A stretch of DNA of 56,853 nt. Origin: an uncultured Coriobacteriaceae bacterium. Lineage in GTDB: Bacteria; Actinomycetota; Coriobacteriia; Coriobacteriales; Atopobiaceae. The notes under the pieces are model-generated. The model saw only the letters and a program-made list of their open reading frames with translations, searched no databases and had not been told where the DNA came from. Below are positions 337 through 15,084 of this stretch, in pieces. Both the position numbers and the translations under genes were made by a program. The DNA is taken from positions 1 to 56,853 of the forward strand of contig CANEFS010000004.1 of assembly GCA_947426865.1 (NCBI GenBank), given 5' to 3'. How positions within the stretch are numbered: the first letter of the stretch is position 1; each line of letters opens with the position of its first letter.

Positions 337-373
337 AAGGTCGTAGATATAAATACTCAAAATGGAGCGCAAA

Positions 374-1861
374 ATGAGCAGACGAATAGAGATACTCACT
401 GAACCCGAAATAAAGAAACTCAAACGAGGTGGCTACTCCGTTCGCTTCCGCATTCCCCCACATCACGGATTACCAGAAAGTAAAAGTCCACGAAAGAAAC
501 TCCAAGTGAAGAGCATAGGGGCTGCCCGTAAAGAGGCGGAGGATTATCGCAGGGAACTTGAAGACGAGATAAATGATTACAGGAATATCACCAATATCAC
601 TTTCGGTGACTATGTAAGACGATGGCACGAAGACAGAGTTGAGATGGGCGAAAAGGCTATCGGGACGCTTGAAGTTGAAGAACTCTATATCCGACAGATA
701 GAAGAGGCGGCACTTGCGAAGATAGAACTCAAAGAGATTGACGAGAACGACCTTGATAACTTCAAACTGGAAAACAAGAAGTTAGGACGCTCAAACGACA
801 GACAAGACAAATTGCTAAAACTGGTAAAGCAGGTGTTGAAGCACGCTGAAATACGCAGGGAGATAAAGCACAATCCCAGCGGAGCGGTTGCGAACATAAA
901 GAGAAACATCCTGGATAAGCGAAAGGCACTCACAAGGGAAGACCAAAAGCGTCTAATAGAAGCCTTGGAAAGCGAAGACATAACGGGAAAGACCGTTGTA
1001 GTTCGCATTGCGTTCTCAACTGGTTTCAGGCGTGGTGAGTGCCTGGGGCTTCAATGGGGAGATATTGACTTCAAGAAAAAGACGATAAGCCTTACACGCC
1101 AACTGACCTCAAAAGGAGAATACGCACCCCCAAAGTTCGGCGGGAGCGGCGTCATACCCATCGGGGACGTTCTTGTTCGCTATCTTCGCCGCTGGAAAGA
1201 CAAAACCTCAAAGCAGTTCTATCACGGAAAGAAGGTTCCGAAAGAAAGTCCCGTTTGTAGGAACGACAACGGAGAGCAACTACAAGCAGCGAACTTTGAC
1301 AAGTGGCGGCGTGATTGGTTCGTAGCACACGGGCTCGGCGAATACACAGAAGTCAAGGAGACTTGGGATAGCAAGGGGCGCAAGCGATACCACAAAACGG
1401 GCTATAAGGGCTATCGCCTACACGAGTTGCGGCACACTATGGCAACCGAACTCGTTGGCAACGCCGACCTGAAAACGGCACAAACGATTATGAGACATAC
1501 CAATATCAACACAACAGCAGGGTATGTCCACGAGATTGACGAGAATGTTCGCAACGCCGCCAACCTACTTGATGATATGAGAGAAAACGGTAGCGAGTTG
1601 GAGCAAGTGGAGGAGCAGTTAGCGAAAGACGAAAAAACATTCTGGGAAGACAGGAGAGCCGATAAAGAGCAAGCATACAAGCGGCAAAAAGGGAAATGCG
1701 GCGAATGCGGAAAGAGTTTTGAAATAGGCAAGTTGGTAGGAACGCTCATTACGCCCGTCTCAAAGGGCGGCACGCTCACGAAAGGCAACTATTATCTTGT
1801 TTGCCAGCAATGCGAAAAGAAAAAAGCAACCGAGAGCACTAATCATCAGATAACTCATTGA
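374..1861 (+). CDS. int: tyrosine site-specific integrase with degenerate HNH tail
   Basis: This is a phage-type tyrosine recombinase that would insert and excise the element at tRNA-fMet. Counting from an upstream ATG at 362, it has an N-terminal arm-binding region, a SAM-like core-binding domain at about 80-180, and a catalytic domain with R223 (TGFRRGE), H354 and R357 (HELRH), H379 (RHT) and nucleophile Y388. The ATG at 374 is preferred because GGAG lies 6 nt before it, while the ATG at 362 has no ribosome site. Oddly, residues 435-490 form an HNH-like zinc module (CGEC ... CQQC) whose catalytic Asp-His is replaced by Gly-Thr. It resembles the intact HNH of the DUF262 protein in the same element. 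The 3' end overlaps the convergent rep gene by 23 bp. Confidence 0.93.
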   Translation: MSRRIEILTEPEIKKLKRGGYSVRFRIPPHHGLPESKSPRKKLQVKSIGAARKEAEDYRRELEDEINDYRNITNITFGDYVRRWHEDRVEMGEKAIGTLEVEELYIRQIEEAALAKIELKEIDENDLDNFKLENKKLGRSNDRQDKLLKLVKQVLKHAEIRREIKHNPSGAVANIKRNILDKRKALTREDQKRLIEALESEDITGKTVVVRIAFSTGFRRGECLGLQWGDIDFKKKTISLTRQLTSKGEYAPPKFGGSGVIPIGDVLVRYLRRWKDKTSKQFYHGKKVPKESPVCRNDNGEQLQAANFDKWRRDWFVAHGLGEYTEVKETWDSKGRKRYHKTGYKGYRLHELRHTMATELVGNADLKTAQTIMRHTNINTTAGYVHEIDENVRNAANLLDDMRENGSELEQVEEQLAKDEKTFWEDRRADKEQAYKRQKGKCGECGKSFEIGKLVGTLITPVSKGGTLTKGNYYLVCQQCEKKKATESTNHQITH

Positions 1862-2711
1862 ACCACTCTTTGAACACTGTGGTCTCAAACCCTGCTTTGT
1901 CATTCCTAATCGTTTTGATTGACGAAAAGGTTTGCTTATGGGTTTTCCTATACTCGCTCGCTTCCTTTTCGCTCATTTGGCGCTTGGTAGGTCTCTTCAC
2001 TCCACGAGAACAACGGTAGATATTAAAGCCAGCGGGATACAGATGAAGCCCACCACCTTTGATAATGGCTTTCTTCTCGCCGTTTATCTCCTTCACATCG
2101 TCACCCAACCCGTCGTCCACGAACACATCCGAAAGGTATGCCGAAAGGTATGCTCCAAGATTGTCCACATCGTCAACCTTTGAAACCTTCGTGAAGCCGT
2201 GCTGCCATATCCTTCCAATGTCGTCATTGGGCAGGAACGGGGCTTTGCTTTGATAGAAGAGAAGCAAGTGGAAGTGAAACCGCTGTTTTCTGTCTGGTGT
2301 CTCATTCGGAGCATTAGGTTCGCACACAACAAGATATTCGGGCTTCTCAAAGCCGCACTTGGAACTCCATCGGACAAACCTCTTCCAAAAAGCGGAAAAG
2401 TCCCTGTATAGCGTCTCGCTATCGTCTACGGGGTCAGCATAGGTAAGCGTGACAAAACGAACCTTGTGAGGGTCGGTAGCGTTTGCGTTCACAATCCCTC
2501 TGATTGTGACGAACGTCCGAAGCAACGAGCGGTGACATTGGGAACGGTTCACGCTTCTCTCACCGTATTCGCATATCTCGCCAGTCGTTAGGTTCACAAA
2601 CTCATTCTCTGAAATCTTCTTTGCTCTACAAGTCCTATTCGCCTTCGTCGTTTGGGTGATTATCGTTATGTTCCCTTGTCGCTCAAATGTGGTGTAGAGA
2701 GTATCCTCCAT
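1839..2711 (-). CDS. HUH-type rolling-circle replication initiator (Rep)
   Basis: This 290-residue protein fits the replication-associated G2P/ORF2-type family, which nicks one DNA strand at an origin and starts rolling-circle replication. Visible motifs are motif I FVTLTY (86-91), the metal-binding HFH of motif II (145-147) and a motif III region with Tyr188 and Tyr192 (AYLSAYLSD), one of which is the likely nucleophile. In AICE-type elements the Rep multiplies the excised circle. It is last in the minus-strand backbone and converges on the integrase with a 23-bp overlap. A large hairpin lies 38 bp upstream of its start. I am confident of the HUH fold but not of the exact subfamily. Confidence 0.8.
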   Translation of the reverse strand: MEDTLYTTFERQGNITIITQTTKANRTCRAKKISENEFVNLTTGEICEYGERSVNRSQCHRSLLRTFVTIRGIVNANATDPHKVRFVTLTYADPVDDSETLYRDFSAFWKRFVRWSSKCGFEKPEYLVVCEPNAPNETPDRKQRFHFHLLLFYQSKAPFLPNDDIGRIWQHGFTKVSKVDDVDNLGAYLSAYLSDVFVDDGLGDDVKEINGEKKAIIKGGGLHLYPAGFNIYRCSRGVKRPTKRQMSEKEASEYRKTHKQTFSSIKTIRNDKAGFETTVFKEWFNELSDD

Positions 2712-3005: not shown

Positions 3006-3176
3006 TTACTTCCCTTCCATAAGCCTCTTCACAGCGGAGATGGTGGCGCTGCTGGTGTTCAACTTGCTCTCAATCTCCCTGTATGTCTTTCCTTCAGTGA
3101 TTGCCTTGGCAATCGCTTCTCTCTTCTCTTGCTTATCTACCTCGTGCTTGTAGAGGTAGCCTTTCTGCTTTTTCAT
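3006..3176 (-). CDS. small helix-turn-helix protein
   Basis: This 56-residue gene begins inside the end of the FtsK-like gene (44-bp overlap). It has a lysine-rich N-terminus and a C-terminal helix-turn-helix resembling resolvase or TrpR-type repeats: AIAKAITEGKTYREIE as the first helix and turn, then TSSATISAVKRLM as the recognition helix. It probably binds DNA, perhaps as a regulator or an excisionase of the element. It overlaps the gene before and nearly touches the gene after, as expected in a compact operon. The function is inferred from fold and place only. Confidence 0.65.
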   Translation of the reverse strand: MKKQKGYLYKHEVDKQEKREAIAKAITEGKTYREIESKLNTSSATISAVKRLMEGK

Positions 3177-4482
3177 AGGTGGTGTCCTTCGGTCTCAAAT
3201 GCTTCGTCTCTTCAACAATGCGTTTTTCTGTTTTTTCGTCTATATATGCCGCTTTGAACAGGCGGGGCTTGTTCATATACCCCTCGCAGAAGATGTAGCC
3301 AACGCCTTTTGATGAAATGGGTATCTCGCAACTCGGTGCTTCGTCCGCTCTTGTGTCAAACAACATTTCGTCACTTCGTGCGTCGCCGCTGCTGAACCCA
3401 AGCAGGTTTGAGGTCAAGAGGCTTCTGGTCGTCGTATCAACGAGACCAGACATAAACCGCTGCGTAATCAAAAAGATTGACATTCCATAGGCAGCGTTGC
3501 GGCTTGCCGCAACAAAGACAGCCCTATCAATTTCATCGCCTATCTTCCGTGGCTTCTTGCCGTCTGGGTCTTCAATGACAGAGGCTCGCAAGATGGCGTA
3601 TTCGTCAATAATCAAAGTGATGTGTGGGAGTTCTTCGGAGAACCCTTCAATCTTCTTCAAGCCGTGGAGCAAGCAATAGGCTTTGCGTCTCTCTGCTTCT
3701 CTGTTCAAGGCATTTACCACATTGAGAATATCTATCGGGTCGTCGTGAAGTTCAGCCCTGCTCTCGTATGCCTTGAAGTCCATAATCTTGTTTGAACAAA
3801 CTATTAGGCGCTCGTTCTTCAACTGTGAGAGCATTGCTATGAAAGACGAGGTAGCAGCCGATTTTCCTGACCTTGACTGACCTGATAGCATTCCGCTCAC
3901 AACTCCGTCAAGCGTCATATAGGCAGTCTCGCCAGTGGCATATCTCCCTATCGGTATCCGCTCCCGTGTCGGCTTCTCTTTCATATCATTAAAGAGGACT
4001 TTCATAGCCGTCAGGGTCGTTATCTCTGTCTCGGTGTAATAAATAATCTCGTAGCCGAAATAACCGTCATCGTTTGGTGGAAGTTGCTCAACATCAACCC
4101 TGATAGCCTTGAAGATGGGTAGGCTCTCTTCAACTATCCGTCTCAACTTCTTTTCCGTTGAGCCGTATAACATCGGGTGGTAGATGAAGCGAATGGGGTT
4201 CTCATCCAAGCACTCGAACTGCTCTTCATCCTGTGGTTTAATCCCACCTTTTCGCAAGCAGTCCAAGAACTGCTCTTTCAGTTGTTTTCTATTCCTATCC
4301 CGCCCGTCCTGTTGAAGCGATACTTCGCTTTCTGGGTGTCTGATTGAGTTGTAGATAATGCCAAGCGATAACCATAGGGGGAAGATAGCTGCGGCGTATA
4401 ACCCGAAGAGAGCCAAGACGCCGCAGACGATGAAGCCAAGTGACAGGATAGAAAGACGCAGGTGGTCTTCAATCCAGTCCAT
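3133..4482 (-). CDS. FtsK/SpoIIIE-like DNA translocase (TraB/TcpA-like)
   Basis: This 449-residue protein has two N-terminal membrane segments (about 8-30 and 31-46) and a RecA-like motor with Walker A GQSRSGKS (201-208) and Walker B LIIDEY (about 290-295). It matches the FtsK-type translocases of AICEs and the coupling proteins of Gram-positive conjugative elements, which pump DNA through the membrane. It is the only transfer-type gene in the element, and no relaxase is present, consistent with TraB-style transfer of double-stranded DNA. It starts 4 nt after the Pra-like gene stop. It lacks an obvious gamma domain, so any sequence reading would depend on other parts. Confidence 0.85.
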   Translation of the reverse strand: MDWIEDHLRLSILSLGFIVCGVLALFGLYAAAIFPLWLSLGIIYNSIRHPESEVSLQQDGRDRNRKQLKEQFLDCLRKGGIKPQDEEQFECLDENPIRFIYHPMLYGSTEKKLRRIVEESLPIFKAIRVDVEQLPPNDDGYFGYEIIYYTETEITTLTAMKVLFNDMKEKPTRERIPIGRYATGETAYMTLDGVVSGMLSGQSRSGKSAATSSFIAMLSQLKNERLIVCSNKIMDFKAYESRAELHDDPIDILNVVNALNREAERRKAYCLLHGLKKIEGFSEELPHITLIIDEYAILRASVIEDPDGKKPRKIGDEIDRAVFVAASRNAAYGMSIFLITQRFMSGLVDTTTRSLLTSNLLGFSSGDARSDEMLFDTRADEAPSCEIPISSKGVGYIFCEGYMNKPRLFKAAYIDEKTEKRIVEETKHLRPKDTTYEKAERLPLQARGR

Positions 4483-4486
4483 AATC

Positions 4487-4816
4487 CTATTCCTTCACCT
4501 TGCCCATCTTCTCTGCTGAAAAAGCCAGTTGAGCACGGTTTCCGCTGTTATAGGCAAGAGCGGTCAAACCAACGAAAGCGATGGGGGAGAACTCTGGCAA
4601 CTGCGGTTCTTGTGGTAGTGCCGTCTTCACTGTAATGGTCTCGGGCTTGGTTGCCCCTCTCTGCTTGACAAGGCAGACAATACCGAAGAGCGGAGTTCCA
4701 TTCTCGTCCCTGTCCTGCTCATTGGTCGCTTCTCCGTCAACATATTTCATTCTTGGCTCTGCGGATAGATAGCGGATGTAGTCAAATCCATTTTGGTCAA
4801 CGAATACCCTGTTCAT
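4487..4816 (-). CDS. Pra-like replication/excision activator
   Basis: A 109-residue protein with the pattern of the actinomycete 'plasmid replication, integration and excision activator' family (pSAM2 Pra): a central DRDENGTPL segment, a short beta stretch, a proline-rich turn, then IAFVGLTALAY and a basic-aromatic end. Pra proteins switch on replication and excision of AICEs. The assignment rests on remembered family patterns, not on a search. A good ribosome site (GAAGGA) precedes the start. It sits directly before the FtsK-like gene. Confidence 0.55.
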   Translation of the reverse strand: MNRVFVDQNGFDYIRYLSAEPRMKYVDGEATNEQDRDENGTPLFGIVCLVKQRGATKPETITVKTALPQEPQLPEFSPIAFVGLTALAYNSGNRAQLAFSAEKMGKVKE

Positions 4817-5914: not shown

Positions 5915-6997
5915 TTATTTGTTACTCTTCCTGCGGTTACAATCCCTACAGAGCATTTGGCAGTTATCGGCAGTCGTCTTGCCGCCCTCTGACCACGGCG
6001 TTATATGGTCTCCTTCCATCTGCTCCAAGGCGAAATGACCACCACAAGAAGGACATATGCCGTCCTGTCTCTCATACGCTTCACGCTTCATAGTATCTGT
6101 GAAAGCACGGATTGAAAGATGGCGTTCATCGCCGTCAAGAACATAGGCGTATATACCCTTCTTGTTAGTGATGTCGTCGTCCATCATCAGTTCTTTTATC
6201 TGTTGTTCTAACTCCGTTGGGTTCAAGGTTTCATCCTTGTGGGCGGCATACAGCCCACCCCAATCAAGACCCTTCATTTCTCTGCGGTAGTTCGGAAATG
6301 TCGCTTTCACCCAGTCTATAACCTTTTGGAAGTAAGCCCACTCAACGCCAGCGTTGCTGTCGTGCTGGTGTTCTGCCATATATTCCTCAATGTTGTTGTT
6401 GCTTATCCATTTCAGGACGGTTTGGAGATAGTCCTGTCTGATTGGGCTTCCAGTCAGATAGTCCTTGCCTTTGCGATAAGCCACGCAGTTGGTCTTGGAG
6501 AAGTATCGCTTTGCGTCCGTTAGCCACTCGCCAGCGTATACGGCATTCCTCAACTCTTGGTCAGTCAACTTCTCGCCAGCGATGTTGATAGTCCTGAACC
6601 AGTCAAGTTTCTCGCTATCCTTACCCTCACAAATGTAGATAGTGAGAGGATAATCAAGTATCTGATTTTGCTCGTCAGCCGTGAGGTTGTGAAAACCACG
6701 GTAGTCAACGGTGAAGTTCCCATCAAGATATTCACAAAAACTAATGGTTCGTTGCTGACCGTCCAGAACCTCGTAGTTCCCGTCATCGGTCTTTACCCAA
6801 TACATCACATTCAAAGGAAAGCCCTTCGTAATGGTGTCTATGACAGCATTTCTCTTTGCGTCGTCATAGACGAACTCACGCTGATACTTGGGACGAATGG
6901 AGAGTTTCCCATCAAGGGCATACACGCCCTCCTCATCATCGTTTATGTAGCCTTGGTAGACCTCTCCTACGGTTGTCTCGTGAAGTGTGATGTCCAT
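5915..6997 (-). CDS. DUF262 (GmrS/ParB-like) plus HNH nuclease
   Basis: A 360-residue protein joining an N-terminal DUF262 domain to a C-terminal HNH nuclease. DUF262 is ParB/sulfiredoxin-like and has the hallmark YQREFVYD near 38-45 and DGQQR at 79-83. The HNH has Cys315/Cys318, Asp330-His331 (GDHITPWSEGG), Asn345 and Cys350/Cys353, all intact. DUF262 fused to a nuclease occurs in GmrSD and SspE-type enzymes, which use NTP to attack foreign or modified DNA. Its start codon overlaps the stop of module 2 (TAATG), so its translation depends on ribosomes arriving from the methyltransferase region. A restriction role is likely; its target cannot be read from the sequence. Confidence 0.85.
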   Translation of the reverse strand: MDITLHETTVGEVYQGYINDDEEGVYALDGKLSIRPKYQREFVYDDAKRNAVIDTITKGFPLNVMYWVKTDDGNYEVLDGQQRTISFCEYLDGNFTVDYRGFHNLTADEQNQILDYPLTIYICEGKDSEKLDWFRTINIAGEKLTDQELRNAVYAGEWLTDAKRYFSKTNCVAYRKGKDYLTGSPIRQDYLQTVLKWISNNNIEEYMAEHQHDSNAGVEWAYFQKVIDWVKATFPNYRREMKGLDWGGLYAAHKDETLNPTELEQQIKELMMDDDITNKKGIYAYVLDGDERHLSIRAFTDTMKREAYERQDGICPSCGGHFALEQMEGDHITPWSEGGKTTADNCQMLCRDCNRRKSNK

Positions 6998-7266
6998 TAG
7001 TGTCTTCTCCTGACGAACGCACGGGCATAGACCTTCACATAGGTCTTCCCATCAACTATGTAATATGTCTTCCCATCGGGGGGCGTGGCAACTTCAATCG
7101 CCGCCCCGTCATTTAGTTTTGAGACCTTGCTTTTTTTGCCCGAAGATGAGATTTGTGTTTGCTGCCCGTAAGTCTTCGTCCGTATCTCGTCCCAACTTTG
7201 GGATACGCCCAGTATCTCAAACTGCTCTGGATTGTATTCATTGAGGAATGTAATCGGAACACCCAT
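6997..7266 (-). CDS. methyltransferase C-terminal module 2
   Basis: This 89-codon frame encodes a domain homologous to the end of EcoRI-family adenine methyltransferases: GVPITFLNEYNPEQFEILG, then a variable part, then a KTYVKVYARAFVRR ending. It can start by itself at the TAATG overlapping the stop of module 1. The same frame is also open upstream all the way to the AG tract. The residues just before the ATG (HIEWCSGL) resemble those before module 1 (IHYTSGV), which suggests it evolved as the end of a longer protein. Its stop overlaps the DUF262 start. It is a diverged duplicate of module 1 and could change target recognition or complex formation. Confidence 0.7.
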   Translation of the reverse strand: MGVPITFLNEYNPEQFEILGVSQSWDEIRTKTYGQQTQISSSGKKSKVSKLNDGAAIEVATPPDGKTYYIVDGKTYVKVYARAFVRRRH

Positions 7267-7535
7267 TAGACCACTACACCATTCAATATGGTCTTCCGAA
7301 CCAATATACGAGCGTATTTCTCTTTCCCGTTTATCTCGAACCTGTGTCCAGGCTTCGGATTGTCCGCCACGTATCTGTCCAGCCCTACTATCTGAAACTG
7401 TTTCGGGTTGTATTTGTCGAGAAAGGTTATCGGAACGCCCATCACGCCGCTCGTGTAATGTATCTGCTCCTTGGGAACAATCGACGCAAGGAGATTGTTC
7501 CTCTCTCTCTCTCTCTCTCTCTGACGCAAACGCAC
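7266..7535 (-). CDS. methyltransferase C-terminal module 1 (out of frame now)
   Basis: This open frame (nominal GTG at 7535, 89 codons) runs through the AG tract and then encodes the family's usual C-terminus: GVMGVPITFLDKYNPKQF, then INGKEKYARILVRK. It is out of frame with the upstream methyltransferase at the present tract length. With 10 or 13 AG units the two would join into one protein of about 408 residues. A separate start at 7535 is doubtful, since no ribosome site is evident. I read it as the phase-variable tail of the methyltransferase rather than a separate gene. Confidence 0.65.
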   Translation of the reverse strand: MRLRQRERERERNNLLASIVPKEQIHYTSGVMGVPITFLDKYNPKQFQIVGLDRYVADNPKPGHRFEINGKEKYARILVRKTILNGVVV

Positions 7536-8494
7536 TCGTTACCGTTCTCGTCTATACGGTCACTACCCAATTCAAAGCCAGCGTCAAGTAACCTCTGCTT
7601 GTATTCAATCGGAACAAGATAACCCTCTTCGTAGTCGCAAGGTATGTCTGCCACCTTGCCAACTTCTATTGCGTCGTAGTTGTCGTATTTGGGGTATTTC
7701 TTCGAGTCATATTTCTCGCACAAGATAAGGTTCTCGTGTCTCTTTTTTATATCAAGATTGGTGAACCAGCATATATTCCCCAGACTACGCCATTTCTGAC
7801 CACTTTCATCAACCCAAAACCTTGTTTCTCTTGGCTCGTAGTAGTCGGGAACGGTGAATGCCATATCCCCCGATTTATAACCCAACCACACTCTGTCCTC
7901 TTTGAGAAGGGGGAACACTTCTTTGTAGGTGATGGCGTTCTGACTTCCAATGATAACGAACTTCTTGCCGTGCTCCATAAGTTGGGCTATATATTCCCTA
8001 AACAGGCTGAATGGAGGGTTCGTAATCACGATGTCGGCTTCGTCAAGTAAAGCGACGCATTCAGGGCTTCGGAAATCTCCGTCACCCTCCAATGGTGTGA
8101 GAACATTTTTGTCGTTTTGTAGGAGGTATTCGACATCGGACAGGTCAATCTTTCCGTCCTCGTTGTTGTCAACCACCTCTGTTATCTCTATTTTGTGAGG
8201 TCGCTCTCCTTTATCCTCTTCTTCAAAATCATCGAACAAGGAGAGTTGCGTTTGAGCAACAGGTGAGCCTTTATAGCAGGTGGATATGAGTTTTTTCAAT
8301 CCCAAGCGATTGAAGTTCATAGCGAAGTATTTGAAGAAATTGCTCTCGTAAGGGTCATCGCAGTTGAGAAGAATCGTTTTATCCTTGAAATGCTCCTTAT
8401 AATGCTTCAACTCATTTTCAATATCAGAGAGTTGCGTGTAAAACTCATCCTCTTTTGCTTTCATAGCATTTGAAAGTGATTTGTTGCCAGCCAT
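7442..8494 (-). CDS. EcoRI-family adenine-specific DNA methyltransferase, phase-variable
   Basis: As sequenced this is a 350-residue protein of the M.EcoRI-type N6-adenine methyltransferase family. The catalytic motif NPPF is at 159-162 (VITNPPFSLF), followed by conserved GSQNAITYKEVFPL and YDAIEVGKVADIPCDY. After residue 324 it enters an (AG)11 tract read as Arg-Glu repeats and ends 19 codons later with the tail GTISLRRLFPRSRYITRAA, which looks like an unselected frame. The stretch EGYLVPIEYKQRLLDAGFEL before the tract may be a third, degenerate version of the C-terminal module. The start at 8494 has GAGG upstream. The cassette promoter and a 15-bp palindrome lie just before it. The present form may be inactive or have altered specificity. 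Confidence 0.85.
   Translation of the reverse strand: MAGNKSLSNAMKAKEDEFYTQLSDIENELKHYKEHFKDKTILLNCDDPYESNFFKYFAMNFNRLGLKKLISTCYKGSPVAQTQLSLFDDFEEEDKGERPHKIEITEVVDNNEDGKIDLSDVEYLLQNDKNVLTPLEGDGDFRSPECVALLDEADIVITNPPFSLFREYIAQLMEHGKKFVIIGSQNAITYKEVFPLLKEDRVWLGYKSGDMAFTVPDYYEPRETRFWVDESGQKWRSLGNICWFTNLDIKKRHENLILCEKYDSKKYPKYDNYDAIEVGKVADIPCDYEEGYLVPIEYKQRLLDAGFELGSDRIDENGNECVCVRERERERGTISLRRLFPRSRYITRAA
7501..7522. repeat. (CT)11 / (AG)11 dinucleotide tract
   Basis: Eleven uninterrupted CT units (AG on the coding strand) lie inside the methyltransferase gene. A tract of this kind gains or loses units by slipped-strand mispairing. Every reading frame through it alternates Arg and Glu codons and has no stop, so a change in length only switches the downstream frame. 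Confidence 0.95.
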
Positions 8495-8704: not shown

Positions 8705-8782
<78 letters not shown>

Positions 8783-14993: not shown

Positions 14994-15068
14994 CTTTTCT
15001 CAAATAAAAAGGCCCATACGCGCTTTTTCATTTCCCCCACTCATATTAAATTATGGTTTCTCGCAAAT

Positions 15069-15084
15069 TGTTTCACGTGAATTA
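15069..15084. promoter_or_regulatory. parS-like ParB-binding palindrome
   Basis: TGTTTCACGTGAATTA matches the bacterial parS consensus TGTTTCACGTGAAACA at 14 of 16 positions, with the whole central core intact. It lies in the 299-bp AT-rich gap (14994-15292) between divergent genes. Binding by ParB is inferred from the match. The rest of the gap holds a possible TTGCAA/AATAAT promoter (15182-15210) for the plus-strand gene. Confidence 0.55.

Follow-up and report, generated by a model that had tools for sequence, protein, structure and literature searches.

Tyrosine integrases of the XerC/phage type (PF00589, PHROG 1) resemble the integrase described here in the whole core, the catalytic residues, and the use of a tRNA 3′ end as target. 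The relatives of this type that we examined, however, either stop shortly past the catalytic domain or have tails of unrelated kinds, and none has an HNH tail like that of our integrase. That tail falls in the same group as the HNH domain of the DUF262-HNH restriction proteins, which combine a GmrSD-like N-terminal domain with HNH and are linked to EcoRI-type methylases; these proteins nevertheless keep both the catalytic Asp-His pair and the DUF262 N-terminal domain, and the integrase tail is without either (Pfam gave no DUF262/GmrSD_N match, PF03235, anywhere on the integrase chain). The Gme HNH nicking endonuclease (PDB 4h9d) is the tail's best PDB sequence match (E 7e-6) and, with T4 endonuclease VII (1e7l), is among its best structure matches, but both are active enzymes and the tail lacks the catalytic His. 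DotN of the Legionella type IV coupling complex (PDB 5x1h, 6sz9), a further structure match (Z 4.4–5.0, perhaps reflecting merely a common arrangement), is an HNH-like zinc protein whose role is structural, not that of a nuclease; it is, however, a separate protein in another machine, whereas the tail is part of the integrase. The fused integrase is thus a common enzyme in a rare form rather than a new kind of system.

The window, by which we mean the whole stretch of 56,853 nt that was analyzed, starts at a contig end (contig C4 of its genome), and the integrase gene belongs to a Rep/FtsK element of ~8.6 kb whose insertion site is tRNA-Met. The features of this element are as follows.

128–173, no strand: attachment-site repeat on the integrase side, a copy of the tRNA-Met 3′ end (46 bp; 95.7% identity with 8705–8750)
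283–325, no strand: candidate arm-binding sites, three TTCGCCCC(A/G)TT direct repeats immediately upstream of the integrase start
362–1861, plus strand: tyrosine integrase with a C-terminal HNH-type tail, 499 aa, in a single open frame (PF00589 and PF01844; a homologue is 85% identical)
926–1537, plus strand: tyrosine recombinase catalytic domain, residues 189–392 (Pfam)
1595–1684, plus strand: linker helix, residues 412–441, predicted in the tail and full-length models and absent from the closest tail-less relatives
1697–1828, plus strand: HNH-type domain, residues 446–489 (PF01844 over its cut-off; structure matches dominated by HNH nucleases)
1742–1747, plus strand: Thr461-Leu462 at the catalytic Asp-His positions (alignment with DUF262-HNH domains)
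1839–2711, minus strand: replication initiator of the REP_ORF2/G2P type (PF23343; 89% identical in Adlercreutzia)
3133–4482, minus strand: FtsK/SpoIIIE-like translocase (PHROG 1358, E 9e-21; Pfam match weak)
4487–4816, minus strand: SCO3933-like regulatory protein (NCBIfam E 6.5e-7, 29.5 bits, below the cut-off of 80)
5915–6997, minus strand: DUF262-HNH nuclease whose HNH residues are intact; its family is the one nearest to the integrase tail (PF03235 and PF01844)
7442–8494, minus strand: EcoRI-type adenine methyltransferase, paired with the DUF262-HNH protein (PF13651, E 1e-133; the pair is conserved elsewhere)
8706–8782, minus strand: tRNA-Met, the integration target, at the other end of the element (ARAGORN; repeat)

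Two small proteins are also encoded between the ends, and the replication initiator gene is convergent with that of the integrase, whose final bases it overlaps. Rep, an FtsK-like protein, and Int thus occur together in one tRNA-integrated unit, and, judged by its gene content, the element is an integrative one of the Rep/FtsK/Int (actinomycete) kind with restriction-modification cargo. A short inverted repeat flanks the three direct repeats at 283–325, which are possibly arm-type integrase sites. When a promoter of the tail's own was sought, the only match was a weak promoter-like one on the other strand.

In a class-wide search, the only other genome with a fused tail was that of Adlercreutzia sp. 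ZJ176, which belongs to a different family of the same order as the source of the window in the genome set used. Its element (locus L061) has ~80% DNA identity to the window element where the two can be aligned, and its main genes match in kind and order, with a few extra small genes; the methylase/DUF262 pair is present in both, and the same tRNA-Met repeats are found at L061 4098–4143 and inside the tRNA-Met at 14998–15075. The two integrases (window 362–1861, L061 4345–5808) are 85% identical overall, but this figure combines 92% in residues 5–410 with 53% in the tail, the fall coming past residue ~410. In the Adlercreutzia tail, Gly-Phe stands for Asp-His, and the four cysteines and the last Asn are kept; the window tail has an extra 8 residues relative to it.

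The first-pass annotation had called a tyrosine integrase with an HNH-like tail unusual, and within what was searched this proved to be so. Among the loci fetched, several of which are copies of the window or Adlercreutzia locus, 76 open frames match the integrase profile and 52 the HNH profile, but a match to both was seen solely in the proteins of the window and of Adlercreutzia. Only two independent sequences of the fusion are known. Nothing beyond Adlercreutzia sp. ZJ176 was found among phages, plasmids, IMG/VR, and GTDB contigs, and scans at the level of class, family, and phylum (398, 138, and 396 overlapping genomes) returned no homologue other than the Adlercreutzia one; these scans reach relatives of the window integrase, and unrelated integrase-HNH fusions elsewhere could escape them. 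A literature search, with most subscription papers outside its reach, found no description of an HNH-tailed integrase. No HNH tail was found in the other integrases examined, including relatives at 31–41% identity, of which four (L066, L042, L059, and L044, 36–41%) stop soon after the catalytic domain.

The recombinase core of the tailed enzyme matches PF00589 over residues 189–392 with 75.9 bits (E 4e-21), and its catalytic residues, R223, H354-x-x-R357, H379, and Y388, are invariant across an alignment of four integrases. Because these residues are intact and both elements are flanked by the tRNA-Met repeat, the tailed integrase has probably been active in the past. Three of the tail-less relatives (L074, L075, and L076) adjoin a copy of the tRNA-Met 3′ end or have a tRNA-Met gene nearby, and since they lie by the same tRNA-Met end, the tail is probably dispensable for choosing this target.

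By sequence, the tail does contain an HNH-type domain. Pfam HNH is matched by residues 446–489 in the whole integrase (25.1 bits), by the window tail alone (28.6 bits, E 1.6e-6), and by the Adlercreutzia tail (31.6 bits), all above the curated cut-off of 21.4, and a profile of the tail matches DUF262-HNH domain profiles with 99% probability (hhalign). The relation between the 3′ part of the integrase gene and the C-terminus of the element's own DUF262 protein, noticed at the outset from the sequence, holds with 39% identity over 56 residues (E 2e-13, as a single comparison), and the region then proposed, 1660–1861, was correct, with the HNH proper lying at 1697–1828. Chance similarity is not a sensible explanation for such matches to an HNH-type domain fused to an integrase. 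A known integrase domain unrelated to HNH was also considered, in the form of an ordinary recombinase zinc ribbon: the window copy does have a weak match to PF13408 (serine recombinase), but at 20.2 bits this is below the cut-off of 25.3, in both copies HNH scores higher and exceeds its cut-off, the Adlercreutzia copy gives no reported PF13408 match, and neither the mostly HNH structure matches nor the hhalign result fits a ribbon, which makes this explanation very hard to credit.

C446, C449, C481, and C484, previously read as zinc cysteines, indeed form two CxxC zinc knuckles (the PF01844 subtype) and are present in both copies. The first-pass annotation had placed Gly-Thr at the catalytic Asp-His, but that reading was one residue out, and Thr461-Leu462 stand there; it was right that the last Asn, which comes after the fourth cysteine, has been replaced (by Glu485), and the detail that needed correcting is that the middle Asn, N476, is retained. 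With its Asp-His pair occupied by Thr461-Leu462, the tail cannot be a canonical HNH nuclease. One might still suppose, from the HNH-type domain and the retained N476, that the tail cuts or nicks DNA through a rearranged active site, but neither copy has the metal-binding Asp or the general-base His, the replacements differ between the two (TL and GF), and we consider residual nuclease activity highly improbable. That both known tails are dead HNH modules, as had been proposed for the window copy, is instead supported by the loss of Asp-His and the retention of the four cysteines in each.

In the tail model, which is of moderate quality (mean pLDDT 74.8, low-confidence residues within 55–62), a helix of 31 residues leads into the zinc module. 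Its matches in Foldseek and VIA-align are mostly HNH nucleases, with the Gme HNH, T4 endonuclease VII, and Cas HNH domains at the top. As a check on the beta-beta-alpha metal fold, these matches, mostly HNH, have modest scores, with E values above 0.001 and Z scores of at most 5.6. The full-length integrase model (mean pLDDT 49.5) was too poor for use.

When the two tails were compared with all the HNH domains collected, each matched DUF262-HNH proteins best. In a tree with eight other HNH domains, the tails and the DUF262-HNH domains that are paired with EcoRI-type methylases are set apart from those eight with 97/99 support; because the position of the tails had been an open fork in a first, larger tree (41 rows), this support depends on the outgroups chosen. 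The proposed relation to the DUF262 nuclease is thus borne out at the level of the family, and the grouping suggests that the tail HNH was probably captured from the methylase-linked DUF262-HNH restriction family. The further idea that domains were exchanged within one element found no such support: inside the DUF262-HNH group the tails do not pair with the DUF262 protein of their own element, being no nearer to it than to others. Nor did a recent duplication of the HNH within the element show any trace, or any remaining similarity, at the DNA level.

These relationships bear on a possible link to restriction, in which the dead HNH would mimic that of the DUF262 nuclease, bind the nuclease or its DNA, and so couple or restrain restriction during transfer. 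The membership of tail and DUF262-HNH in one subfamily and the presence of the methylase/DUF262 pair in both fused elements speak for such a link; however, the tails are not closest to the DUF262 protein of their own element, and elsewhere (L073) a member of the same nuclease family has a tail-less integrase as its neighbor, which shows that the pairing does not hold generally. We regard this link as doubtful, and we hold little expectation that a non-cutting HNH copy ties the element's integration or excision to its restriction system, for example through docking to the DUF262 nuclease or to the DNA that the nuclease binds. At L073 (4941–7823), the integrase is 31% identical and a convergent DUF262-HNH gene lies about 640 bases away, so that end-to-end meetings of integrase and nuclease genes from these families do occur.

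Whether the tail is maintained was addressed by comparing the two copies. In a pairwise codon model using the synonymous distance of the core, omega is ~0.30 for the tail as compared to 0.03 for the core, and omega = 1 is rejected for the tail (2dlnL 46). Neutral simulation of the HNH part gave a mean identity of 0.18 and at most 0.39, against an observed 0.53, and in none of 2000 simulated neutral runs were all four cysteines retained. The tail thus changes at about ten times the rate of the core and is under clear purifying selection; it is looser than the core yet not drifting freely. Third-position identity between the window integrase and L061 4345–5808 is somewhat lower in the tail than in the core, which could reflect a greater age of the tail, recombination within the core, or saturation.

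Rapid evolution is also what one would expect of a folded passenger, a chance-fused HNH remnant that is inert and remains folded only because misfolding would harm the integrase. The loss of catalytic residues, the extra 8 residues of the window copy, and the existence of just two known copies point the same way, and the tenfold faster evolution together with the drop from 92% to 53% past residue ~410 fits a marginal role. However, a stop codon could cheaply remove a useless tail, and none has arisen in either lineage at a dS of ~1.2, near saturation, while all four cysteines persist. We therefore consider an inert passenger unlikely, although it deserves to be taken seriously.

In the account that we favor, the integrase of a small Rep/FtsK element gained a C-terminal HNH from the DUF262-HNH nucleases that travel with EcoRI-type methylases, and nuclease activity was then lost and the zinc-bound shell retained. 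The catalytic Tyr is followed by a C-terminal helix; just beyond that helix, a helical stalk would carry the HNH-like zinc module, which would act during integration or excision as an accessory part that contacts DNA or stabilizes the synapse, or as a protein-docking surface. The combination of lost cutting residues and a kept zinc shell suggests that the domain was reused to hold DNA or protein, and the DNA-binding clamp suggested by the first-pass annotation is a plausible form of it. Taken as a whole, this account, in which a captured, cutting-dead HNH shell serves as an accessory module contacting DNA or partner proteins, is the best explanation we can offer, and we would give it an even chance of being right. 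It would be a small and clean example of how a mobile element can recycle a domain of a restriction enzyme, here as a part of its integrase that does no catalysis, and because the two copies have different dead-site residues and the same cysteines, the contribution of a dead HNH shell to tyrosine recombination is directly testable.

The EcoRI-type methylase and DUF262-HNH genes form an adjacent pair that is conserved across phyla and often found on plasmids (window 5915–8494; L061; L078–L082; plasmid loci L113, L115, L116, and L117). The pair is a probable restriction-modification system with an unusual nuclease; among the papers searched, none had a title or abstract about it. Near the 3′ end of the window methylase gene (6997–8494, minus strand), the frame breaks at an 11-copy GA/CT tract (7501–7522), after which come two tandem alternative C-terminal pieces (7266–7535 and 6997–7266), both with MGVPITFL, so that the end of the methylase looks phase-variable.
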